Shown here piece by piece: positions 568 to 34,647 of a stretch of 64,000 nt of DNA. This DNA is from Planctomyces sp. SH-PL62 (GTDB taxonomy: Bacteria; Planctomycetota; Planctomycetia; Planctomycetales; Planctomycetaceae). A program made the position numbers and the translations under genes. The notes beneath the pieces were generated by a model, which searched no databases, was not told where the DNA came from, and worked only from the letters and a program-made list of their open reading frames with translations. Where the stretch lies: assembly GCA_945893045.1 (NCBI GenBank), contig CAMDEA010000012.1:1-64000 (forward strand), in the 5' to 3' direction. How positions within the stretch are numbered: the first letter of the stretch is position 1; every line of letters begins with the position of its first letter.

Positions 568-1040
568 CTTCACGCCGGTTTTCGGTTGCGGACACCATTT
601 CGCTTACCAAGTGTTGCCACCATCATTGGGCATCGCAGTCATGCCTCCAAAACTCCCAGAAGAATTGTGGGCAGGGCTCCAGCAAACCGGCAGCTCTCCA
701 AAAGCGCGGAAAAGGAATTCAAGTATGCTTTTTGAATGTTCTGTTGATCGTTCTTAAGACCGGTGCTGACACCTTCTCTCCGTCCAGCTTTTCCATTCCC
801 ACCATCGCGCGAAACTTGGTCTGCCGCGTATGTGGCAATACATTGGCCGAGGTTTCGCGGCCTTCACGGGCCGATACGACACGATAAGAAACGCCGGTTT
901 GGCTCTCGACCTGCTCATCTGGAGGCAGTTTGTACGCCGTCCAGTCCGCCTGCGTTCAAAGTTCCAAGCGGAAGGACACCGCGAGGACAATGCGACCGGA
1001 ATCTTGTATGCCGCAGCCAGCCGTCCCTCGGTCACACGCG
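568..1040. other. intergenic stretch without a recognisable gene
   Basis: About 470 bases separate the ABC ATPase from the TIR-kinase gene. Short open frames exist on both strands, but none shows a recognisable motif or a good start context. The long downstream frame is open back to a TTG at 930 with GGAGG four bases before it. The peptide encoded between 930 and 1040 is Arg/Pro/Ser/Cys-rich and looks non-coding. I see no clear promoter or terminator. Confidence 0.5.
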
Positions 1041-4000
1041 ATGTTGTCCATTGAGCCTGCCGTCACTCGGGAGCAGGTTTTTCTCAGCTACAGCCACAAG
1101 GATGAATACTGGCTGGCAGAACTACAGACGATGTTGAAGCCGCTATTGAAGCGGCGAACAATCTCGATCTGGAGCGACACACTCATTGAGCCAGGTGAAG
1201 AGTGGCATCCTCGAATTCACGCTGCGTTATCCGCGGCCAAGGTGGCGATACTTCTGGTCAGCAAGCATTTTCTGGCCTCAAAGTTCATCACTGACGAGGA
1301 ATTGCCGGCGATACTCAAGATGCGTGAGTCGGGACTCAAGGTACTATGGATCCCCGTCAGCCATTCAATGTACGTCGACACTGAGTTGAAGCACCTTCAA
1401 GCGCTTCACGACGTTTCCAGTCCACTTGACTCGCTCGATGATCGTCACCGTGACAAATCCCTATTCGCGATCTGCGAAAAGATCCGCGACATCCTGCTGG
1501 AACCTCCTGCGACTGAGAACTTGGCTGGTAGTGATTTACAGGCGGCATCTGCGACGACGCGCGACAAATCTGATCGCAGCCCGCTGGAACGGCACGACAC
1601 CGACCTGAACCTGCTGTTTGGGGCCGTCGCGGTGCAGAATCAATTCATCGAAGCGTCAACGCTCGCTGAAGGCTGCGTTTTATGGAGCCTCAGGAAATCG
1701 CAACCTCTGTCAGAAATCCTTGTGGAGCAGGGGGCGCTTTCTCTCGCTGACCGAGCAGACGTGCAGCGACTGGTTGATCGGCGGTTGAGGGCAAACTCCG
1801 GCAACGTGGCGGCCACGCTTCGAAGTTCCACAGACAGCAGCGTCTGCGACATCCTAAGGAGAAGCCAGGTTCCTGAAGTGCTCCAGTCCTTGGACGCGTT
1901 AGCGACCTTGGATGGCCCACTTCAAGATTCCGCGACAGACTTGCCGCTGGAATGGCGAGCCGTGTTTCGAGAGGGAACGCTGGGAGAGGTCTGGACCGGA
2001 TTCGACCCCGTGCTGGGGCGAGAAGTCGCGTTGAAGGTCGTACGCAACGATCGCGCCTCCCAGGTTGGAGCCCAAGCTCGGCTGTTGCAAGAGGCACGCA
2101 TTAACGGTCGCCTTGAGCATCCGCACATTGTTCCCGTCTACGCTCTCGGAACGCGTCCCGATGGCACACCGTACTATTCGATGAGGCTCGTTCACGGTCC
2201 GACACTGGCAGAGGATATTGAGCGTCATCATCGAACTCGCATTAATGACCGAGTTGACGCAGTCGAGCGGCGACGGTTGCTTGAGAACTTTCTCAGTGTG
2301 TGCCATGCCGTTGCGTATGCCCACTCACGCGGCTTCTTGCATTTAGACTTGAAACCGCAGAACGTCATTTTGGGTGAATTCCGCGAGGTGTACCTGCTCG
2401 ACTGGGGACTCGCGCAATCAAATGCTGCCGAGGAGCGGGTAGCTCCCGTTTCGGCCGAAGCCAGTCGTGCCACTCCAATGTTGATCGGCACCCCCGCCTA
2501 CATGTCGCCCGAGCAAGCCGCCGGAAACGCCGAGCGATTCGATGTGCGAACCGACGTTTATGGCCTGGGGGCGATTCTCTTCGAAATTCTTACGGGAAAA
2601 CCGCCGCATGATGCTGACAACTTGGAGCAGCTCCTTCGGGACATACAGGTAAAAGACGCTCCGTCACCGCGTGAGTTGTTGTCGTCAATCGCCCCTTCGC
2701 TCAATGAGTTGGAAATGCGTGCGTTATCCCGCGACCCGCAGGACCGGTTCGCGTCGGCCGAAGACCTCGCTCTGGCCGTTGAACGCTGGCTTGACGACGA
2801 ACCGCTGGCCGTTTACCGAGAGAACATCGAGCGTTACCAGCAGAAAATCAAAGAGGAACCCGATACGACCCCCTATCGGGAAGGTCTCGCACGGAATTTT
2901 GTCGCCCAAGGCCTCGTTCTCTTTGGCATTGGCCGCCTTCCAGCCGCGGAGTTTAGCCTGCGACAGGGGATTGAAGTTTTTCAAAACGTTTTGAAAGACC
3001 GCCCCTCCCCCAGCGCGCTGGGGGATCTGGCGACGGCATGGCTGCATCTGCATTACCTACTGCGCGACACCGGCAAACCGGAAGAAGCCGAGGCGGCAAA
3101 ACGAGAGGCGTTGAAGCTGTATTTCCAACTGCGCCGGTCATCTCCGGGGCAAGACGGACAGCACTCAATCCTGCTGCCAATGATGACCATGCACTTTGAA
3201 GAAATGGACGCCGAACGCCTTAGCGACAAGCAATCTGAGGCAACAGATCAATCAGAAAATCAGATGGCCCGCTTGACGCAAGCCGAAGGCAACGCAAATT
3301 CTGAAGAAGAAATGGACGCCGAACGCCTTAGCGACAAGCAATCTGAGGCAGCAGATCAATCAGAAAATCAGATGGCCCTCTTGACGCAAGCCGAAGGCTA
3401 CGCGAATTCTGAATTAGAACCGCCGAGGAGCGAGTCGGGTGCTCGAACGACAGTGGCCCCGGAATCGGAATCGTCGATCCCAAGTACAAGTAACAGTGTC
3501 GAGACTCTCCGAGAACGATGGAGTCGCAGGGATTTTGTCTCGCGCAAGGTAATCGGTGAGGGAGGAATGGGAACCGTGTTTCAGGTGCGGGATGACGCCC
3601 TCAACCGTGAAGTTGCGCTAAAAACACTAAAGACACTTGAGACTCCGTTGAATCTCAATCGTTCAGGGACGTTTCATGAGGTTCTTCGTCACCGCGACGC
3701 GATGTTTTTTTCCGAAGCCATTATTACCGCTGACCTGTACCATCCAAATATTCTGCCGATTTATACGACCGGAATCTGGAACGATGGGCAGCCATTTTAC
3801 ACCATGCCGCACATTCGCGGTGACGGTTGGCATAAGCGTCTCAAGGAAATGACGCTCGAAGAAAACCTCGAAGTGTTGATGAAGGTCTCCGATGCGATTG
3901 GGTTCGCGCACTCGCGACACATTTTCAACCGGGATCTCAAACCAGAAAACGTGATGCTCGGCGAGTTCGGCGAGACGATCGTGCTCGACTGGGGTCTGGC

Positions 4001-4811
4001 ACTGCCGTTCGGCGAGGGGAAGGGACGCCTGCCGATGGCAACGACGGCCGGACTCGGATCGGGAACACCAGCCTACATGCCGCCGGAATTGATCACCGGA
4101 CCACTCGCCAAAATCGGCCCAGCCTGCGACATTTACTTGTTGGGAGCAATGCTGTTCCAGGTAATTACCGGATTGCCGCCGCATGATTTTTCCACACGCC
4201 CTCCCGACGGCACGCTCACGGCCGCCGAAAAGTTGGCGGAGGTTCGCCGCGTCGTGGTCGATAACGTCATTCGCGAAACGACGCACACCGGCGAACTGAT
4301 GGATATCGCCACGAAGGCGATGGCCACCAATCCAGAGGACCGCTATCGCACGGTCAAAGAGTTCCAGAATGCCATCCGCGACTACATGAAGCACGCGGCG
4401 AGCCACACGCTGGCTGATCGTGCCAAAGAGATGACCACCGTTGCCGCCCCGATCGCCACGGAGGCGAAACCCGCTGCGGACGTCCCCAGCGTCGGTTACG
4501 CGGACTATCAAAACGCATTGGCGCTCTACAACGAATCGCTGCGTGAATGGCCCGGCAACGAGGTCGCCAGAGAAGGACTGACTGCGACACAGTTGAACTT
4601 CGCGAAACTCGCGTTGATTATGGGAGACTTCGATCTGGGCTTATCGGTGCTCGATACGAACGCCGACTCACATTCGGAAACGCGATCGAAGCTGCTGCTC
4701 GTTCGCCAAGAACGTGAAGGCCGGATTCGTTTGATGAAGTTGTGGAAGGTCGCGGCGGCCGTGAGCTTGGTGGGGAACTTGGCGGCAATCGTCTGGATAT
4801 TGAGTCGCTGA
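1041..4811 (+). CDS. TIR domain protein with two Ser/Thr kinase domains and C-terminal membrane anchor
   Basis: About 1256 residues if the ATG at 1041 is used; the frame also allows TTG at 930. Residues about 10-150 are a TIR domain (VFLSYSHKDEYW, then ASKFITDEELP with a Glu where TIR NADases have the catalytic one). About 190-300 is a helical region common before kinases in planctomycetes (NLLFGAVAVQNQFIEA). Kinase 1 (about 305-585) has VALKVV, HLDLKPQN and DWG. Kinase 2 (about 830-1115) has IGEGGMGTV, VALKTLK, NRDLKPEN and DWG. So the usual HRD reads HLD and NRD, and DFG reads DWG in both; the Lys and Asp residues remain. A 36-residue tandem duplication links the kinases, and one TM helix ends the protein. 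It probably acts as a membrane-tethered signalling or defence-like sensor; the ligand is unknown. Confidence 0.85.
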   Translation: MLSIEPAVTREQVFLSYSHKDEYWLAELQTMLKPLLKRRTISIWSDTLIEPGEEWHPRIHAALSAAKVAILLVSKHFLASKFITDEELPAILKMRESGLKVLWIPVSHSMYVDTELKHLQALHDVSSPLDSLDDRHRDKSLFAICEKIRDILLEPPATENLAGSDLQAASATTRDKSDRSPLERHDTDLNLLFGAVAVQNQFIEASTLAEGCVLWSLRKSQPLSEILVEQGALSLADRADVQRLVDRRLRANSGNVAATLRSSTDSSVCDILRRSQVPEVLQSLDALATLDGPLQDSATDLPLEWRAVFREGTLGEVWTGFDPVLGREVALKVVRNDRASQVGAQARLLQEARINGRLEHPHIVPVYALGTRPDGTPYYSMRLVHGPTLAEDIERHHRTRINDRVDAVERRRLLENFLSVCHAVAYAHSRGFLHLDLKPQNVILGEFREVYLLDWGLAQSNAAEERVAPVSAEASRATPMLIGTPAYMSPEQAAGNAERFDVRTDVYGLGAILFEILTGKPPHDADNLEQLLRDIQVKDAPSPRELLSSIAPSLNELEMRALSRDPQDRFASAEDLALAVERWLDDEPLAVYRENIERYQQKIKEEPDTTPYREGLARNFVAQGLVLFGIGRLPAAEFSLRQGIEVFQNVLKDRPSPSALGDLATAWLHLHYLLRDTGKPEEAEAAKREALKLYFQLRRSSPGQDGQHSILLPMMTMHFEEMDAERLSDKQSEATDQSENQMARLTQAEGNANSEEEMDAERLSDKQSEAADQSENQMALLTQAEGYANSELEPPRSESGARTTVAPESESSIPSTSNSVETLRERWSRRDFVSRKVIGEGGMGTVFQVRDDALNREVALKTLKTLETPLNLNRSGTFHEVLRHRDAMFFSEAIITADLYHPNILPIYTTGIWNDGQPFYTMPHIRGDGWHKRLKEMTLEENLEVLMKVSDAIGFAHSRHIFNRDLKPENVMLGEFGETIVLDWGLALPFGEGKGRLPMATTAGLGSGTPAYMPPELITGPLAKIGPACDIYLLGAMLFQVITGLPPHDFSTRPPDGTLTAAEKLAEVRRVVVDNVIRETTHTGELMDIATKAMATNPEDRYRTVKEFQNAIRDYMKHAASHTLADRAKEMTTVAAPIATEAKPAADVPSVGYADYQNALALYNESLREWPGNEVAREGLTATQLNFAKLALIMGDFDLGLSVLDTNADSHSETRSKLLLVRQEREGRIRLMKLWKVAAAVSLVGNLAAIVWILSR
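3201..3416 (+). repeat. 108-bp tandem duplication inside the TIR-kinase gene
   Basis: Two adjacent 108-base units (3201-3308 and 3309-3416) are nearly identical and encode two 36-residue copies starting near MDAERLSDKQSEA. They sit in the acidic, Gln/Ser-rich linker between the two kinase domains. Because 108 is a multiple of three the frame is kept. The few differences between copies suggest a recent duplication. Confidence 0.93.
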
Positions 4812-5404: not shown

Positions 5405-8400
5405 ATGGTTGATATCCGCAAAGCTCCAGAGATCGTGGCGGATTCCGCTCTGGCACTTTTGGTCGATCGTCACGATACCCTCATCAGTGAACTTTGCCCG
5501 CAGAATGCGACCGTCAATTGGAATGTCGTTACCGACGGCTCGGACGGTCGGGTGCAACTCGACGTGACGGATGCTTATGGCGGCAGTCGCCGAACTCTGA
5601 GCACGGCGGATCTCAGCGACGTCGATGGCATGGTCGCTCGGGTCTCGCAGTTGGTGGGCGATCTGGTTTATCAGCATTGCGATCACTTGCGCGATCGCGA
5701 CACGCTCGCACATCTGGCGAGCTTCACGCCCGGGCGATTGTGCTTGCGCTTCATGGAATCGGATCCGAATATCGCGCTGCCGTCGAGCGAGGAATGCCCG
5801 TGTGCCCTCTTGTTCGCCGACATTTCCGGTTTCACGAGCCTGACCGAACGTCTGGCTCGCAAGGGAGCGGCCGGGGCGGAAGAGCTGACGGCAGCTCTCA
5901 ACAGTTACTTCGGAAGGCTGATCGAAATCGTCTGTGAGTTCGATGGCGATGTTTTGAAGTTCGCGGGCGACGCACTGCTGGCCACGTTTCAAGAGAACGC
6001 GCACCAGCCAGGACTGAACAACGCCGCGTTCCGAGCGGTGGCAGCGAGTTTCAAGATTCAGCAGCAGTTGCGGGACTTCCCCGAGGTCGAAGGAACAAAG
6101 CTCTCACTGAAGATCGCGCTGGCGGCGGGTGACTTGCGGATGCTGCACTTGGGAGGGGTCTTCGGTCGCTGTGAACTGCTGATGGTGGGTGATCCGTTAC
6201 GCGAACTGGGCGATGCGAACGGCTTGGCCGAACCGGGTGACATCATTGCTGCGCCGAGTCTGCGCGCTCACGTTGCCGCGCGAGCCAGCGGGGCACTGCT
6301 CGATGGCGGGAACTTCCGCATCGAGTCCTTGCAGCCAGGAGGCAACGGCGACATCGAGACGTCCGGAGTGACCGGTCAGTCGCGGTTGGTCGCGGCTCCG
6401 TTTCGAACTGCGGTCGTCTCGGCCATGCGAGGCTATATCCCGGCGGCGATCTACGCGCGGCTGGCGGCTGGCCAGACCGATTGGTTGGGAGAGCTTCGCA
6501 AAGTGACGGTGATCTTCGTCAACTTACCGGGCTTCAATCGTGAGACTCCGTTGCCGGCGGCTCAGCAGTTGATGGTGGCGCTGCAACGGACCATCTACCA
6601 GTTCGAGGGGAGCCTCAACAAACTGAGCGTGGATGATAAAGGGGTCTCGATGCTGGCGGGGTTCGGTCTGCCGCCGGTCGCTCATGAGGACGATGCGGCA
6701 CGGGCGATCGGTGCCGCGCTGCTCTTGCACGAACGCATTACCGGGCTGGGGTGGAAGTGTTCGATTGGCGTGGCGACCGGCCGCATCTTCTGCGGTGCCT
6801 ATGGCAACAATCAGCGTCGCGAATACACGGTGATCGGCGACACCGTAAATACCTCGGCTCGCCTGATGCAGGCTGCCAAGGGACACATCCTGTGCGATCA
6901 AGTGACGTGGCAGGCGGCCGAATCGCGGTTCGATTTCGAGACGCTCGAACCGCTGAAGATGAAGGGGAAGAGCGAGCCGGTTCCATGTTATCGGCCCCTG
7001 GGGCGTCGCACTCGTGAGGTCCATGAAGCCGGCCAGCGCACGACCATCGGCCGCAAGAAAGAGCGAGAGATCTTCGGTGGCCGGCTGAGCGGACTGATCG
7101 AGCGACAGGAAAGTTCGGTCCTGTTGTTTGAAGGGGAGGCCGGCATCGGTAAGTCGCACTTGCTGGCGTCGTTTGGCAAACAGGCCCGCCTGAGGGGATG
7201 CCGGATTCTGAACGGGCGCGGTGATGCGATTGAGCGTTCGACCCCGTGGTTCGCCTGGAGATCGGTGTTCGCGGGAGTCATCGAGATCGACGACGAGCGA
7301 CTGGAACCAGTGTCGCTGGAACGCACCGTGCGCGACCGCTTTCAACTCGATGATGAATTGGTGCGTTTGCTGCCGCTGTTGTCGTCCGTCTTGCCTGTGA
7401 CCTGGCGAGACAACGAATGGACCGCGCAGATGAACGGAGCGATCCGCGCCGTGAATGCCAACATCTTGTTGACTCACCTGATTCAACAGGTGGCTCGTGA
7501 GCGACCGTTGGTCATCGTGCTGGAGGATTCGCACTGGTGCGATTCGGCGTCATGGGCACTACTGCGTGAAGTCGCGACCAAAGTTCATCCGCTGCTGATC
7601 CTGTCGGCATCGCGGCCGATGCCGCGACCGCTGCCCAGAGACTGCGAAGCAGTGCTCAAGCTGCCGGCCACCGAGCATGTGCAGCTCGATCTGCTGTCGG
7701 GTGACGATGCCGTCTTGCTGGCTCAGTACCTGCTGGAAGTCAGCGAGCTACCGCCTCAAGTCGAACAGTTGATCCGCGAACGAACGCAGGGGCACCCGTT
7801 GTTCGTCGAAGAGCTGGCCTACACCCTGAAGGAGTCCGGCACGGTCCAAGTCGTGGATGGCTTCGCGCGCCTGGTCGGCGATCTGCACGAGTTCGCCGAT
7901 CGAGGAGTCCTGGGATCGCTCGATGGCGTGATCGTCAGCCGTATTGATCGGCTGGCACCTTCCGAGCAATTGACCGTGAAAGTCGCCAGCGTGATTGGGT
8001 ATGAGTTTCCCTATCCGATGTTGCGGGACATCTTCCCGGTCGAGCAGGAACGTGGCGGACTGCCCAACTTCCTGCAAGCACTGGCGACCCACAGAGTCGC
8101 CAGCGCGGTCGATGACCGCGCGGATGCCGAGTACGTGTTTCGTCACCGCACGATTCGCGACGTGGCCTACAACCTGGTTCTGAACAAGCACCGCGTGGAA
8201 CTGCATCATGCCATCGCCGCCTGGATTGAAACGACCCATCAGGGAGAACTCGACGCCCACTACCCACTGCTGGCAGAACACTGGTTGCAGGCGGGTGAAA
8301 TCCAGCGAGCGATCGAATGCCTCGCGCGGGCCGGCGAGATCGCTCTGGAAAACAACGCCAATCGCGAAGCCGCCTACTTTTACCGCAAGGCACTCCGCAT

Positions 8401-9832
8401 CGAAGCCGAACAGAAACAGCGTGTCGATCCGATGGAGCGTGCCTTGTGGCATCGACGCTACGGCGAAGCGCTGTACCGGCACGGCGAGATCACGCTCAGC
8501 CTGCAACAACTGCGTGAGGCCCTGAAGCTGTTCGGCTACCCTGATCCAGAATCGCCGGTGTGGGCCGCGGTGCAAGGCAGTCTGGAAATGGTGCGGCAGT
8601 TCTTCAATCGTTGTCGCAGCGAACTGTTCGGCAGCCCCGCGGGCCGGCCCAGCCAAGCGCTCATCGAGTCGGTTCGCGCGTATGAACGAATGGCCGAGAT
8701 TCAATACATGCGAAACGCGATGCCCTCGTTTCTGGTCGCCACGTTTCGCTGCACGAATCTCGCCGAACGGTATGGATTCTGCGCAGAACTGGGCCGCTCG
8801 TTTTCAACCGTTGCCGTCATGGTGGGCTCGATGCGCTTGCGCGGCGGGGCGGAACGGTATGCGAACCGAGCCCGCGAGATCGCCGAGAAGACCGGCGATC
8901 TGCCATCCATTGCTTATGTCCGCGCCATCAACTGCCTGCCGTTCATGGGGTTCGCCGACTGGGAGAAGGCCAAGGAGACTCTGGAGTTCGCCGTCAAACT
9001 TTGCTCCGAAATTGGCGACCGTCGCCGCTGGTCGGAAGCCACGGTGCTGCTGATCAATGCCGTTTGCTGGAGCGGAGACTGGACCAAGCTCAGCCAGGGA
9101 GCCTGGGAACTGCGCCGCGTGTCCGAGGCCGAGAACGTCGCACAGGTGGCGTGCTGGGCGATCAGTTGGGTGATCTGGTTCGAATCGGCGTTTGATCCAG
9201 CAAGCTCCGCCACGCGCGAATCCGAACGAGCGATGGAAAGTTGGATGCGGACTGACGAAGAACTGCCTCTCGCGGATGAAGTTCTCTCGCGCGGCGGCCT
9301 GCTGCTGCCCAAGTTGCGACGCGGCGAGTGGGAACCGGCGCTCGCCGTCGCCAATGACATTGAGCGAATCCTCGGAAATGCTCAGCCGGTCGCGATCTAT
9401 CTGCTGCCAACCTACTGCGCGATGGCCGACCTCTACTACGCACTGTGCCATTCCGGATATTCGTCGGCGAGCATCACCCAGCGCCAATTGCGATCGCGTC
9501 TGCGACGAATGCACTTCCGAATTCACGTCTTCAGCATCCTGATCCCGATGGCGACCCCGTTGAAGTATCTCAGCGCCGGAAGGCGACACCTCTTGAAGGG
9601 ACACGTTTGGCGAGCTCGCCGCACCTTCCGCAAGGGCATCCGGCAGGGAGAGAAGTACCGCACGCCCTACTTCATCGCGATGCTGGAATTCGAGTTGGCT
9701 CAGGTCGTCAGTTCCGAAAGCGAACGCAGCGCCTTGGAAACCTCGGCGCGAGAGCGGTTTCACAAGTTGGGAATCGAGAATCCAGAAGTCCTCTGGAAGC
9801 GACCCGCAACTCAACAGGGAACCGGGCTGTGA
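5405..9832 (+). CDS. Class III nucleotide cyclase / AAA-type ATPase / TPR protein, soluble adenylyl cyclase-like
   Basis: 1475 residues. Cyclase domain C1 (about 130-290) has ALLFADISGFTSL with metal Asp near 139 and LKFAGDALLATF with Asp near 189, but lacks the Asn/Arg transition-state pair. Domain C2 (about 365-530) has lost the first Asp (FVNLPGF) but keeps GDTVNTSARLM with Asn about 482 and Arg about 486. The two domains can thus form one complete composite site, as in mammalian soluble adenylyl cyclase (ADCY10). An ATPase follows with Walker A GEAGIGKS (about 577-584) and a Walker B-like VIVLEDSHWCD. The last 700 or so residues are helical TPR-like repeats. No TM segment is visible. The start codon is the first ATG of the frame, without a strong ribosome site. 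Expected reaction: ATP to cAMP; substrate choice is not proven. Confidence 0.88.
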   Translation: MVDIRKAPEIVADSALALLVDRHDTLISELCPQNATVNWNVVTDGSDGRVQLDVTDAYGGSRRTLSTADLSDVDGMVARVSQLVGDLVYQHCDHLRDRDTLAHLASFTPGRLCLRFMESDPNIALPSSEECPCALLFADISGFTSLTERLARKGAAGAEELTAALNSYFGRLIEIVCEFDGDVLKFAGDALLATFQENAHQPGLNNAAFRAVAASFKIQQQLRDFPEVEGTKLSLKIALAAGDLRMLHLGGVFGRCELLMVGDPLRELGDANGLAEPGDIIAAPSLRAHVAARASGALLDGGNFRIESLQPGGNGDIETSGVTGQSRLVAAPFRTAVVSAMRGYIPAAIYARLAAGQTDWLGELRKVTVIFVNLPGFNRETPLPAAQQLMVALQRTIYQFEGSLNKLSVDDKGVSMLAGFGLPPVAHEDDAARAIGAALLLHERITGLGWKCSIGVATGRIFCGAYGNNQRREYTVIGDTVNTSARLMQAAKGHILCDQVTWQAAESRFDFETLEPLKMKGKSEPVPCYRPLGRRTREVHEAGQRTTIGRKKEREIFGGRLSGLIERQESSVLLFEGEAGIGKSHLLASFGKQARLRGCRILNGRGDAIERSTPWFAWRSVFAGVIEIDDERLEPVSLERTVRDRFQLDDELVRLLPLLSSVLPVTWRDNEWTAQMNGAIRAVNANILLTHLIQQVARERPLVIVLEDSHWCDSASWALLREVATKVHPLLILSASRPMPRPLPRDCEAVLKLPATEHVQLDLLSGDDAVLLAQYLLEVSELPPQVEQLIRERTQGHPLFVEELAYTLKESGTVQVVDGFARLVGDLHEFADRGVLGSLDGVIVSRIDRLAPSEQLTVKVASVIGYEFPYPMLRDIFPVEQERGGLPNFLQALATHRVASAVDDRADAEYVFRHRTIRDVAYNLVLNKHRVELHHAIAAWIETTHQGELDAHYPLLAEHWLQAGEIQRAIECLARAGEIALENNANREAAYFYRKALRIEAEQKQRVDPMERALWHRRYGEALYRHGEITLSLQQLREALKLFGYPDPESPVWAAVQGSLEMVRQFFNRCRSELFGSPAGRPSQALIESVRAYERMAEIQYMRNAMPSFLVATFRCTNLAERYGFCAELGRSFSTVAVMVGSMRLRGGAERYANRAREIAEKTGDLPSIAYVRAINCLPFMGFADWEKAKETLEFAVKLCSEIGDRRRWSEATVLLINAVCWSGDWTKLSQGAWELRRVSEAENVAQVACWAISWVIWFESAFDPASSATRESERAMESWMRTDEELPLADEVLSRGGLLLPKLRRGEWEPALAVANDIERILGNAQPVAIYLLPTYCAMADLYYALCHSGYSSASITQRQLRSRLRRMHFRIHVFSILIPMATPLKYLSAGRRHLLKGHVWRARRTFRKGIRQGEKYRTPYFIAMLEFELAQVVSSESERSALETSARERFHKLGIENPEVLWKRPATQQGTGL

Positions 9833-10294: not shown

Positions 10295-10894
10295 CTACGT
10301 GTTGACCGGCACCCGCGTTGCCAAGTGCTCGACCAGCTTGGTGCATTCCTCGGCGAGCACGGCCAATCGCACATCCTCTTGAAACGCGGCGGCGATCATC
10401 TCGCGGTGATACCAAAGGATGCGGTCGGGCGGCGCGTTGAAGCGCGACCACAGGCCGGGATCAGTTTCGAGATCGAAGACCATCGTGCCGAGGTTGTGCA
10501 GCTTGTCAGCCAATGTAATCGCGCGGGCTTCCCACGAGGCGGCGGCGATGTGCTTGAGATGTTCGGTCTTGCGATCTTGCCACGAACGCTTCTGACCGGA
10601 CTCGTCCCGTTTGGTCTCGGTCAACGCGGCGACAAACTCGATGACCTGCGGCGGGAAGTCAGCCGCCAGGGCCGCGAGCGAACAGTCCGTGTCTTCGACA
10701 ACATCGTGCAGCAACGCGGCAGCCAGAATTTCATCGTCGGTGATGCCGGATTTCGTAAGCAACATCGCCACGCTGGCCGGATGCGTGAGGTACGGCAAAT
10801 CGCTCGCCTTGCGAGTTTGCTCACGATGACAGCGAGCGGCGACACGCATCGCGCGTTCGACCAGCGGGCTGAAAAGAAATTGGTCATTCGTCAT
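10295..10894 (-). CDS. HD domain metal-dependent phosphohydrolase (RelA/SpoT hydrolase-like)
   Basis: 199 residues from the ATG at 10894 (MTNDQFLFSPLVERAM). The frame extends further upstream, but that peptide is low quality. Motifs of the HD fold are YLTHPASVAMLL, ALLHDVVEDTD and ITLADKLHNL, matching the hydrolase half of RelA/SpoT and small alarmone hydrolases (Mesh1-like). No synthetase, TGS or ACT domain is present. It probably hydrolyses a nucleotide such as (p)ppGpp; the substrate is inferred. It is transcribed alone and faces a large composite palindrome at its 3' end. Confidence 0.85.
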   Translation of the reverse strand: MTNDQFLFSPLVERAMRVAARCHREQTRKASDLPYLTHPASVAMLLTKSGITDDEILAAALLHDVVEDTDCSLAALAADFPPQVIEFVAALTETKRDESGQKRSWQDRKTEHLKHIAAASWEARAITLADKLHNLGTMVFDLETDPGLWSRFNAPPDRILWYHREMIAAAFQEDVRLAVLAEECTKLVEHLATRVPVNT

Positions 10895-11096
10895 TCGGTG
10901 GCTCCCAGTTGCTCTGGCCTTGATCCGTGTGCCAGGTTCAATCCGTGTGCGAAGTGCGTTCGCGAAGTTTGAACACACTTCGCACACGGATCGGAATTCA
11001 CACACGGATGAAGACAGTCTGAATCGGCCGCGGGCGATCGGCCACTTTCGATTTGTGGCAATCGCCGATCATCAAAGGCGGATTCCTTTGATCCTG

Positions 11097-13088
11097 CTAC
11101 TCGGACACGTCGTCGCGCCGGAATTCGTTGAAGTGGATGTATTCCCAATGCCGCATCAGCGGCGCGGTGGTGATCAATTTCGAGTACGGCCCGATCGCTT
11201 CGACCCGGCCCTTGTGCAGGAAGACGACTTGATCGGCTTTGCGCACCGTCGAAAGCCGGGTCGGCAGAAAGATCAGCGTGCGGTCCTTCGCGAGCCGGGC
11301 GTACGTGTCGTCGAGCAGCGACTTCGTATTCTCATCGAGCCGCTCGGCAGGCTCTTCGATCATCATCAGCGCCGGATCGCGAACCAGCGCACGAGCCAAG
11401 CCCAGCAAAAATGTCTGGCCGGGATCGAGTGCTTGGACATGCTCGCCCAAGATGGTCTCGTAACCTTGCGGCAGCTTGGCAATGAACTGGTGCGCGTGGA
11501 CTTGCTTGGCCGCTTCGGTGATGTGTTGCAGGGCAAAGCGCGGATCGCCGCAACGGATATTCTCCGCGACAGTGCCGGTGAAGAAGGGGTCCGTGCCGCC
11601 GACAAAGATGGCCTCGGCCCGCAGCGATTCGAGCGTCACGAACGCCAAGTCCTCACCGTCGATCAGCACGCGGCCCGATTGCGGTTCGATGAACCGCGGC
11701 AGCAGGTACGTCAACGCGCGGGCTTCGAGTGGGTCCAGCGAGACCACCGCAATCATCGTCCTGGCCGGAATCTTCAGGTCCAGGCGATCGAGCAACAGTT
11801 GTTTGCCGGGCAGCCGGTACGTGACCGACTCGAATTGAATCTGCTTCGCGAGCGGTTGCAGAAACTTCGCGCCCACCGCCTGGCCGACTTCAGGGATCCG
11901 CGCCTGATACCTCAAGATGTTGTCGGCCCACTGCCCGGCCGTTTCCTCGATCTGCGGCAGTTCCCAGAGTTCGTTGAGCGGGCGGTACGCCAATCGGAAT
12001 ACCGAGACGAAAATCAGCACGGCTGAGACCGGCAAGTACGCGGACTCGGCCGGATCGCTCAGGGATTTGGTGGCGATCAGGAACAACACCAGCGTCAGCG
12101 TAATGAGCATCAACAACCAACACAGCCAGCGTGACAACTTCTCGTCTTCTTTCAGCGTCGCAATCTTGTCGAGGAAGCGTTGCAGGTGCTGACTGAAACG
12201 TTCGTGCTCGAAGTTCTCCATTCCGAATCCGCGCACCGGCCGAGTCTTTCGCAACCCTTCCGCCAGCAGACGCAGGTCATCGCCGACACGATCCTCCTGA
12301 AGACGGCGCGATTGCTCGAAACGGCGGCGCTCCTTACGCACGAGATACCAGCACGCCAACAGCGGCACGATGCACTGCAACGCCAGCATCCAGTGCATCA
12401 TCACCACCAGAAACAACAATCCCGCCAGCGTCACAGGCCAGCGCACGACACGCTCGAACCACGTTTGAATCCCTTCGCGGACTCGTTCAACATCGCCGGT
12501 AAACATCAGAAAGGCGACTTCGCCGGCATCGTCTTCCAGGTCGCTCGGTCCCAGCCGCAGCGTCTGGCGATGCAGCGATTGACGCAATCGCGTCGCGATC
12601 TCTTGGGACGTCCGGAAGGCCAGCGCCCGGATTTGCAACGCCGATAGACTCGCGATCAACGCCAGCCCGATGTTCGTCGCCAACAACGCCAGCAGAGCTG
12701 AACTGTTCGACCGCAGCGCAAAGAACCTGCGAACGCACCAACCGACAAACGGCCCCCACGACTCGCGCCGAGCTTCCCAAGCGGTGGCTCGCAATCCTTG
12801 GTCAAAGCGACGATGTCCGGTCGGCAGGTTCTCTTCGGCCGGCCCGTGAGCCTTCAAGCGTTGGCCAACTGGCAACGATCCGGTCACTCGCTCGTAGCCC
12901 GCGACATCGACTGCGGTCGGCAGCAGCACGTCGCCGCGCGTAATCAACAAATCCACCAGCAAGTAGATGCCAAAGAGTAATCCACACAACGACGCGGCCG
13001 ACACCGCCGACAACAACCACGCCCAGCGGGCTGCGCCACGCGACAAATCTTTCGGCGGAAACACGCGCCGGAACGGAGTCTCCATCAT
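11097..13088 (-). CDS. ABC exporter-type protein with degenerate nucleotide-binding domain
   Basis: About 663 residues from the ATG pair at 13088/13085, preceded by AGGGGATCC; upstream frame sequence overlaps the permease gene and looks non-coding. The N-terminal half has membrane segments of an ABC exporter (for example WLLSAVSAASLCGLLFGIYL and the region around 150-330). The C-terminal half aligns with an ABC ATPase, but the key motifs are broken: Walker A is SLDPLEARAL with no GKS/T, the signature is ALDPGQTFLL instead of LSGGQ, Walker B ends MMIEEP instead of DE, and the H-loop reads FLPTRLSTVRKADQ with the His gone. The fold seems kept but ATP hydrolysis is unlikely. The permease gene lies 82 bases upstream on the same strand, suggesting an operon. 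Confidence 0.85.
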   Translation of the reverse strand: MMETPFRRVFPPKDLSRGAARWAWLLSAVSAASLCGLLFGIYLLVDLLITRGDVLLPTAVDVAGYERVTGSLPVGQRLKAHGPAEENLPTGHRRFDQGLRATAWEARRESWGPFVGWCVRRFFALRSNSSALLALLATNIGLALIASLSALQIRALAFRTSQEIATRLRQSLHRQTLRLGPSDLEDDAGEVAFLMFTGDVERVREGIQTWFERVVRWPVTLAGLLFLVVMMHWMLALQCIVPLLACWYLVRKERRRFEQSRRLQEDRVGDDLRLLAEGLRKTRPVRGFGMENFEHERFSQHLQRFLDKIATLKEDEKLSRWLCWLLMLITLTLVLFLIATKSLSDPAESAYLPVSAVLIFVSVFRLAYRPLNELWELPQIEETAGQWADNILRYQARIPEVGQAVGAKFLQPLAKQIQFESVTYRLPGKQLLLDRLDLKIPARTMIAVVSLDPLEARALTYLLPRFIEPQSGRVLIDGEDLAFVTLESLRAEAIFVGGTDPFFTGTVAENIRCGDPRFALQHITEAAKQVHAHQFIAKLPQGYETILGEHVQALDPGQTFLLGLARALVRDPALMMIEEPAERLDENTKSLLDDTYARLAKDRTLIFLPTRLSTVRKADQVVFLHKGRVEAIGPYSKLITTAPLMRHWEYIHFNEFRRDDVSE

Positions 13089-13170: not shown

Positions 13171-14148
13171 CTACGCCAAGTCGCGGTCTTCAAACAAGAT
13201 GAACGACAGCAGCAACATGGCTCCGATGTACGCCAGCGAGTACAGCGCGGAATATCCCAAATACACTGGCGGGACCGCGTTCCCCACCGAGACGTTCGCC
13301 GACATATTGAATGCTTCCAGTGACGGCAACAGCGTGGCAATCAGGCGGGCCATGAACGACACGAATTCCAGCTTGAGCGTTCCCGCCTGCACGAGCACCG
13401 GGGTCAGGTGACCGATGACGAAAATCGACAGGCACGTGACCATGTTGACGACCATCGGCGTACGCGTCGAAATCGCCACGCTGACCGCCGTCATCACCGC
13501 GACCTCCATCGCCATCAGCAGAACCGCGGGAACGACTTGCAGCATCTCCTTCAGCCGGTCGGCATTCAGGCCCTGGTTCTCAAACCAGGCCGGAATTTCT
13601 TTGGAACTCTCGCGAGCGTCGTAACCGACTTTGTAAAGCAGCATCACGCCGAACAGCACCACCAGCGGCACCAGCAGACACATCGTGGAATTCACGATGC
13701 CGACATACTTCCCGACAATGAACTGCCGCCGGTTGATCGGCTTCGACAACAGCGTCATTGTCGTCTTGCCTTCGATTTCGCTGGCGATGCTGGTGCTGGC
13801 CGTCCACACCGCCAGCAGCAACGCCGAAAACAGCAGCGTCATCAGCCCGCAGTCCTTGAGCATCTTGATATCGCTGCCCAACGAGAAGAACGGCAGGAAC
13901 GTGTTGATCACCAGCAGCAACGCGCCGAACGTCAGCATCAGCAGGAACACCGGCTGGCGAACAGCCTCTTTCGTGGTGGCGCGCGCGATGACTCCCGTGC
14001 GGGTCATGTAGAGGAACACAAACATGCCGGCCAGCAGCAATCCCAGGATCAGACCAATCGCACCCAATCCGATCGCGGACTTGTCGAACTCCGCTCGAAC
14101 AGGTTCCGCCGCCAGCACCGTGGAAGAAAGCCATACAAGCGACATCAT
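13171..14148 (-). CDS. ABC-2 type transporter permease
   Basis: 325 residues, mostly hydrophobic, with about six membrane segments. A first segment resembles a signal or TM helix ([16 protein letters not shown]), and the region [20 protein letters not shown] is typical of ABC-2 permeases in which a loop precedes the next helix. Start is the ATG at 14148, with GTGAGGC immediately before it. It is followed by the degenerate ABC protein on the same strand. A functional ATPase would be needed; the partial one at positions 1-567 is on the other strand and 12 kb away. The transported substrate is not indicated. Confidence 0.82.
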
Positions 14149-14287: not shown

Positions 14288-14581
14288 TCACCGCCGAGTC
14301 CCGAACGTGTCAAACACCTCGTCACGTTCCACGTCGTGCATCTCTCGCTGGTGAATGTAGCCGGCAAATTCAGACTCAATGTCCGCGAGGAATTGGTCCA
14401 GCACCGGCGACGTCGCCTCGGCGACCAATTCGACGGACCCATTCGGCAGATTACGAACGAAGCCCACCACCGGATGTCGCCGTGCGATCGACACGGTCGT
14501 GTACCGGAATCCAACTCCCTGCACGCGGCCATAAAACAACACTCGCCGACGAATCGGCTCCGAAGACGTGTCCGCCATCAT
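14288..14581 (-). CDS. acylphosphatase
   Basis: 97 residues, the usual family size. It shows the acylphosphatase signature [16 protein letters not shown], where the second Arg binds the phosphate, and [18 protein letters not shown] with the catalytic Asn. The enzyme hydrolyses acyl phosphates in the cytoplasm. Its gene begins one base after the stop of the DUF4259 gene, so the two are very probably co-transcribed. The C-terminal end, with [15 protein letters not shown], is normal. Confidence 0.95.
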
Positions 14582-33318: not shown

Positions 33319-34647
33319 TCACTTCGTCGCCGACCGCAAATCGGCGACGACTTGAGCGGCCCCTTCAACGCGGTTGTCGGTCAACGTGATGTTCTTAGTC
33401 TCGGCTCCCACACGGATGCCGATGCGTTTGGCCGAGCCGCGCTGTTCGACGATGCGGTTCTCGATCAGTTCGATCGACTCCGTCCCGCCCTGGATGTCGA
33501 TGCCGACTCCCTCATCGCCACCGCTGTTGATGATCTCGTTCCGTTCGATGCGATTGCGATGCCCGGCAAACGAGGGACCGCGTTCCGGTCGAAAGAGCAC
33601 TCCCGCCACGCCGCTGTTCTTGATGACGTTGTCGCGGACGATGTTGTCCGTGTCGCGATGCCCAATCGAAACGCTGGCCGTGCGGATGCCTTCGATCGTG
33701 TTCTTCTCGGCGAGTCCATACTTCACGCCCCAGCAGAAGAAGATGCCGATGTTGCACCGCTCGATCCGATTGCCTCGGATCAGCGGCCGCTGTGAACCGC
33801 TGCCCGGATGCAGGCCCAAGTCCGCGTTGTCGTGGCTGTGACAATTCTCGACGACGACGTCGTGACAAATCTGCCAACTGATCCCGTCGCCGTTGTTGTT
33901 CCAAGCCTCGACGCCGCGCATCGTCATCCGCTGGCAGTCCTGCAAGAAGATGCAGCCGGAGTAATTGCCGTCGAAGTGATCGTTCTTCTCGCGATTGCCG
34001 TCGAGCGTGATGTGCTCAATAACGCAGTCGCTGATGAACTCGCCGCTGATCAGCGGGAAAAGTGTCGCCGCCGTCGGTTCGCCCATTTGCCAGACGTTCT
34101 CGCGCAGCGCCTTGTCGAGCTTGAACCGCTTCCCCGAACGAGCAATCAGCGTCCGCTTGAGCACCGTCGCACCGTTGTTGTGCGGGTTCTTCGCGCGGAT
34201 CACGATCCCGTCACCGACGCGAAAACCGTTCGCGTCTTCCAGCGTGATCTCCTGATCGTACCAGTCCGAATCGACGACGATCTTCGTCTTCACGCTTGGC
34301 TCTTTAATGAGCACCGACTCCGCCCCGCTACCGACAATCCGCACCTTCGACGCCAGATAAACCGAGTTCCGCAGCCGATACGTCCCCGGCAACACCTTGA
34401 CCGTTCCGCCACCGAGCCGCGCGACCGTATCGACCGCCGCTTGCAACACCTTCTCGTTCGAGCCGATCAGATCCCCCTCCTTGTTGCCGACCGAGATCGT
34501 CAACCGCTCGTCCCATTTTGGCTCGACAGCCGAATCGCCAGACGTCGCTCGCGGAGACGTCACCTTCGGCCGACCGTCCTCCGCCAGCAAGGTCATCGTC
34601 GTGAGAACGCAAACGCCAGCACACGCGAGAAAGCTGCGACGATTCAT
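33319..34647 (-). CDS. exported right-handed parallel beta-helix protein
   Basis: 442 residues. The N-terminus MNRRSFLACAGVCVLTTMTL is a Tat-like signal. Then GGGTVKVLPGTYRLRNSVYL introduces a beta-helix with many HxN/GN turns (RGNRIERCNIGIFFCWG, VRDNVIKNSGVAGVLF, IERNEIINSGGDEGVGI). The fold is that of pectate-lyase-like or NosD-like proteins. I see no firm catalytic motif. It is likely exported and binds or cleaves a polysaccharide, which is inferred from fold only. Confidence 0.85.
   Translation of the reverse strand: MNRRSFLACAGVCVLTTMTLLAEDGRPKVTSPRATSGDSAVEPKWDERLTISVGNKEGDLIGSNEKVLQAAVDTVARLGGGTVKVLPGTYRLRNSVYLASKVRIVGSGAESVLIKEPSVKTKIVVDSDWYDQEITLEDANGFRVGDGIVIRAKNPHNNGATVLKRTLIARSGKRFKLDKALRENVWQMGEPTAATLFPLISGEFISDCVIEHITLDGNREKNDHFDGNYSGCIFLQDCQRMTMRGVEAWNNNGDGISWQICHDVVVENCHSHDNADLGLHPGSGSQRPLIRGNRIERCNIGIFFCWGVKYGLAEKNTIEGIRTASVSIGHRDTDNIVRDNVIKNSGVAGVLFRPERGPSFAGHRNRIERNEIINSGGDEGVGIDIQGGTESIELIENRIVEQRGSAKRIGIRVGAETKNITLTDNRVEGAAQVVADLRSATK

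Follow-up and report, generated by a model that had tools for sequence, protein, structure and literature searches.

The 64,000-nucleotide stretch of Planctomyces sp. SH-PL62 DNA analysed here (the window) encodes an ABC exporter homologue with degenerate ATP motifs, which we call the pseudo-ABC. Comparison with its homologues indicates that it is almost certainly a pseudo-ATPase maintained by selection, and since this disabled version is kept in related bacteria, it probably does a job other than ATP-driven export. Its constant neighbour is the gene for a NosY-like ABC-2 permease, with which it may work.

An intact exporter frame with altered ATP motifs

The pseudo-ABC frame is open throughout its 663 codons, with an ATG start and no internal stop, in keeping with the original prediction of an intact frame of more than 600 residues. 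Pfam places ABC_membrane (residues 131-339) ahead of ABC_tran (residues 460-580), each above its cut-off, and the ABC_tran match lacks the first 28 profile positions, which are the Walker A region. The top NCBIfam match is MsbA, at 209.5 bits against a cut-off of 602, and the protein falls under the curated cut-off for all 25 NCBIfam models shown. Its AF2 model, built from a 71-row alignment drawn from the window protein and 78 usable references, contains the exporter helices and the NBD (mean pLDDT 89.4, pTM 0.80), with the last dozen residues less sure (pLDDT block means of 68 and 44). Foldseek matched this model best to MsbA (6o30, E 1.8e-31), and further matches were other MsbA entries, TM287/288, MsRv1273c/72c and TmrAB. 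By Pfam, AF2 and Foldseek the protein is a type IV (MsbA-like) ABC exporter homologue with the TMD-NBD order, and the predicted structure keeps the exporter fold. TM1 and a large extra loop lie N-terminal to the transmembrane domain. The features of the gene, all on the minus strand, are as follows.

11097 to 13088, minus: pseudo-ABC exporter, 663 aa (ATG at 13088, stop at 11097)
11904 to 12713, minus: transmembrane domain, residues 126-395 (ABC_membrane 131-339, AF2 helices)
11853 to 11894, minus: family-specific linker PEVGQAVGAKFLQP, residues 399-412 (alignment)
11169 to 11843, minus: pseudo-NBD, residues 416-640 (Pfam ABC_tran, AF2 model)
11718 to 11741, minus: lost Walker A, SLDPLEAR, residues 450-457 (alignment with homologues)
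11595 to 11597, minus: lost Q-loop Gln, here G498 (alignment with homologues)
11415 to 11429, minus: altered signature LDPGQ (canonical LSGGQ), residues 554-558 (alignment)
11349 to 11369, minus: altered Walker B LMMIEEP, residues 574-580 (alignment)
11256 to 11264, minus: altered H-loop PTR, residues 609-611 (alignment)
11121 to 11156, minus: family-specific C-terminal tail, consensus YRHWEYxxFNxF, residues 645-656 (alignment)

As the motif reference we used four canonical exporters from the same genome, all with normal motifs. Where these paralogues have the Walker A sequence GPSGAGKT the pseudo-ABC has SLDPLEAR; its signature retains the GQ; and the H-loop His (canonical HR) is replaced by T610. 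At Walker B the canonical LDEA has become IEEP, with Asp changed to Glu578 and the catalytic Glu579 kept. The original prediction, that Walker A, the signature, the H-loop His and both acidic residues of Walker B are altered, is thus borne out except for the catalytic Glu.

Degenerate homologues across one planctomycete class

We searched for homologues in 59 genomes, comprising the strain's own and those of relatives. Eleven further genomes of the genus were sampled: 10 have top matches at 72-95% identity, and the eleventh (G007, 91% complete) gave canonical-range matches only; in the other sampled genomes of the family (n=25) the top matches have about 40-64% identity. A scan of named genome contigs confirmed 119 relatives, and the best 80 of these 119, which were retained, are planctomycete records, including two of Candidatus Kuenenia stuttgartiensis, which we count as planctomycete; one is labelled just 'bacterium'.

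Of 209 profile matches, 183 cover the NBD end at more than 200 bits, and removal of identical copies left 154 distinct proteins. These divide without overlap into 23 canonical sequences, which have every motif, and 131 pseudo sequences, in which neither Walker A nor SGG is ever complete; the canonical set is a non-random sample, made up of the own genome's four exporters and the best matches from genomes chosen because their scores were weak or borderline. All 131 pseudo homologues lie in a single planctomycete class, where they span ten family groups: 91 belong to the window's family, named records assigned to it included, while f3 contributes 15, f2 10, f81 four, f5 three, f4, f86 and f91 two each, and f6 and f90 one each. 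Outside the class, G063 and G219 matched at E near 1e-100, and both have normal Walker A and Walker B motifs; the signature is normal in G219, and the signature pattern found no match in G063. We rejected both as pseudo members since their motifs look canonical. Score by itself therefore cannot part pseudo from canonical sequences, and because the scores of the two sets overlap near 1e-100, our pseudo counts cover only sequences whose motifs were read.

Comparable motif losses recur in all 131 homologues. None has a complete Walker A or its K plus S/T pair; a lysine stands at the Walker A position in 19, never with S/T next to it. SGG occurs in 0/131 and the signature Ser is changed in 125/131. 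The Walker B Asp is retained in three, while the catalytic-Glu position is Glu in 131/131 and Pro580 is present in 128/131. The H-loop His and the Q-loop Gln are each found in 23/131, in every case outside the window's family group. Of seven key residues, all seven are lost in 88 proteins, six in 19, five in 12 and four in 12 (n=131), whereas 23/23 canonical relatives keep all seven; comparable losses in every pseudo homologue and in no canonical relative argue that they are not the product of chance or sequencing error.

Some replacements are themselves recurrent. P-loop residue 452 is acidic (D or E) in 78/91 proteins from the window's family group and in 31/40 from the remaining groups, and an acidic residue there would be expected to repel phosphate. 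R, K or H at 457 occurs together with Glu at 578 in 79/131, a co-occurrence that is at most suggestive of a substitute salt bridge. Weak nucleotide interaction is conceivable in some lineages, given that three of the seven key residues survive in 12/131 and the H-loop His in 23, and it is conceivable too that the pseudo-ABC binds ATP through unusual residues.

Descent and selection

In an IQ-TREE phylogeny computed with the motif columns removed, a single branch (SH-aLRT 99) divides the rows into 23 canonical and 51 pseudo; this was a quick search without bootstrap, with some long branches and no inferred root. Its 74 rows out of the 154 proteins comprise all 23 canonical sequences, 15 hand-picked from the 91 pseudo sequences of the window's family, and 36 of the 40 others, the remaining four being too short. 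The simplest reading of this tree is a single loss of the ATP motifs in the pseudo clade. Orthologues with normal motifs, which had been named as a sign of a gene decaying in this strain, were not found; the degenerate homologues placed in the tree instead group together.

Among 10 genus members, six close pairs gave within-genus dN/dS values of 0.106 for the whole gene, 0.085 for the NBD and 0.100 for the motif residues, so that by this measure the gene is under strong purifying selection. The very large number of altered catalytic motifs might by itself have suggested a decaying gene or a sequencing or assembly artefact, but frames intact in many genomes, dN/dS of about 0.1 and the fixation of new residues make this extremely improbable, and decay was ruled out by the orthologue comparison together with dN/dS. 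The idea of a maintained pseudo-ATPase, put forward from the window alone, is thus strengthened by a class-wide loss in one clade under strong purifying selection.

The new fixed residues include pseudo-only conserved columns at G52, Q403, A407, F409, P412, T485, P580, D594 and R598 and, in the tail, at H647, Y650, F653 and N654. Among pseudo sequences with a letter there, the tail positions are conserved at 99% (H647), 99% (Y650), 97% (F653) and 97% (N654); the tail residues were looked for in the canonical relatives and not seen, and several f3 proteins stop before the tail in the alignment used. Mean column entropy in the pseudo set is 1.68 for the NBD and 2.61 for the TMD, so constraint is stronger on the dead domain, though canonical NBDs are tighter still (1.29).

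A conserved upstream NosY-like permease

The gene upstream of the pseudo-ABC encodes an ABC-2 permease and ends 82 bp from it; the two are likely to be in the same operon. An acylphosphatase gene lies further upstream.

13171 to 14148, minus: NosY-like ABC-2 permease, 325 aa (PF12679, Foldseek NosY, linkage)
14288 to 14581, minus: acylphosphatase gene upstream of the permease (PF00708)

The permease model matches NosY best in Foldseek (7qba_E, 9.2e-05), and NosY is also the only PDB sequence match at E <=1 (E 0.0059, profile positions 96-150). The permease alignment took 55 rows out of the window permease and 68 others. Residues 118-152 form the most conserved stretch of the permease, which we take, from ABC-2 families, to be the NBD-contact segment. 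No known role for the NosY-like permease of this class was found in the literature searched.

By frame clustering in the window and 80 further loci, the permease lies upstream on the same strand in 69/81. Of the 131 distinct pseudo sequences, 106 have it immediately upstream in the same orientation, 14 lack it there despite at least 1300 bp of upstream sequence, and 11 have too little sequence to judge. A pattern search found an acylphosphatase-like frame upstream, in the same orientation and no more than 3 kb away, in 53/111 loci. Apart from an HD_4 (RelA/SpoT-like) gene directly downstream of the pseudo-ABC (window 10295-11005, minus), whose cluster occurs in 25/81 loci, the remaining common frame clusters overlap the pseudo-ABC and permease genes, and we regard them as shadow frames.

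The remaining window genes include, on the plus strand, a 1293-aa protein with a TIR domain, a Ser/Thr protein kinase domain and TPR (930-4811) and a 1475-aa protein with two guanylate-cyclase stretches and AAA_16 (5405-9832). On the minus strand, a beta-helix protein with a NosD Pfam match (33319-34647) lies about 19 kb from the permease.

Permease and pseudo-ABC can occur apart. The permease is present in 18 of 20 genomes picked for missing adjacency or odd placement; of the other two, G030 (90% complete) has a pseudo-ABC with no permease match, and G401 has neither by score. It is a single match per genome in 289 of 297 sampled genomes of the class, and it occurs with no adjoining pseudo-ABC in f5, f7, f8 and other classes. 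It follows that the permease does not need the pseudo-ABC, and the latter seems to have been added beside a permease that already existed. In the other planctomycete classes (L180-L191) the permease homologue often stands beside what by eye we presume to be ParB-like and metallophosphoesterase-like genes.

Search for an active ATPase partner

The suggestion that the pseudo-ABC pairs with a catalytically active half is not supported. Motif patterns and profiles were used to look for such a half nearby, and they revealed a motif-complete ABC ATPase in just 2 of 130 homologue loci (L137 and L139, flanks of 0 to 10 kb), while L057 has two weaker NBD-like frames; no active partner is consistently linked. 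Neither profile nor pattern detected an ABC-type ATPase beside the permease in 20 permease loci (L172-L191). ABC_tran matches number 62 in the strain's own genome, and a search for an orphan NosF-type ATPase in 20 stretches around its ATPase genes, with crude gene picking, gave no clear candidate. At the start of the contig, about 10 kb from the pseudo-ABC and on the opposite strand, the window holds the C-terminal part of an ABC ATPase (4-567, plus), cut by the contig start, with an intact Walker B.

Possible roles

In our judgement the evidence is evenly balanced on whether the pseudo-ABC is a non-catalytic subunit or regulator, of ABC-exporter fold, of the NosY-like permease, a role suggested by linkage. 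On this view an ABC-exporter half-transporter would have lost the ability to bind and hydrolyse ATP, in the simplest case through one early event in the window's planctomycete class, and would have been retained as a non-catalytic membrane protein that forms a complex with the upstream permease or regulates it. The pseudo-NBD, EEP motif, linker and C-terminal tail would then offer a surface for docking or switching rather than a motor, and if ATP drives any step, the energy would come from a different, unlinked ABC ATPase acting at the conserved NBD-contact segment of the permease. A more specific version, which we find quite doubtful, is that the pseudo-NBDs dock on this segment and hold or gate the permease without ATP, replacing the motor; if true, two membrane folds would be combined in one hybrid ABC complex, found across much of a bacterial class.

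Type IV exporters function as dimers, and four exporters with full motifs are encoded elsewhere in the same genome, so the pseudo-ABC might be half of a heterodimer with an unlinked canonical half, contributing only a substrate path and a dead NBD. We regard this as unlikely; it would be an extreme of TM287/288-type asymmetry. Besides the scarcity of linked active halves, the loss of the signature Ser and Gly would disable the active partner's site as well, which argues against a composite site. Furthermore, in exporters with one degenerate site that site still binds ATP, according to the review PMC7756269, whereas here Walker A is gone.

It is also rather unlikely that the pseudo-ABC is a homodimeric, energy-independent channel, scramblase or substrate receptor, a passive exporter fold whose permease neighbour is simply co-transcribed. 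The fold and transmembrane helices retained in the model are consistent with this, as is the persistence of the gene where the permease is unlinked. However, the entropies (2.61 for the TMD against 1.68 for the NBD) suggest that constraint falls on the cytosolic part, and the gene order shared with the permease is strongly conserved.

Comparison with known systems

The literature consulted includes a P. limnophila essential-gene paper (PMC10632474). Searches for such an ABC family (degenerate, pseudo-ATPase, pseudoenzyme, planctomycete ABC) returned no report of it, nor did we find in print a long-retained whole exporter with both ATP sites lost; most subscription papers fell outside the scope of these searches. 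ABC exporters with one degenerate site are already well studied. A single-clade, class-wide case under strong selection would offer a direct way to ask which role an NBD has left without catalysis, here in a protein tied to a nearly universal planctomycete permease.

With MsbA/ABCB-type (type IV) exporters the pseudo-ABC has in common the TMD-NBD order, the fold (6o30, E 1.8e-31) and profile similarity, but it lacks Walker A, the signature Ser/Gly and the Walker B Asp and has an extra conserved C-terminal tail and linker. BmrCD is a heterodimeric exporter with one degenerate site that keeps nucleotide binding and an active partner; like the TM287/288 and TmrAB heterodimers, it resembles the pseudo-ABC in having non-catalytic NBD residues in an exporter. 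TM287/288-type heterodimers retain nucleotide binding and an active partner, as described in PMC7756269, whereas in the pseudo-ABC the binding motifs are gone and a linked partner is lacking. Finally, the linked permease shares the NosY fold with the NosFY(D) ABC-2 exporter, but in place of an adjoining NosF-type ATPase it has the gene for an exporter-fold pseudo-ATPase.
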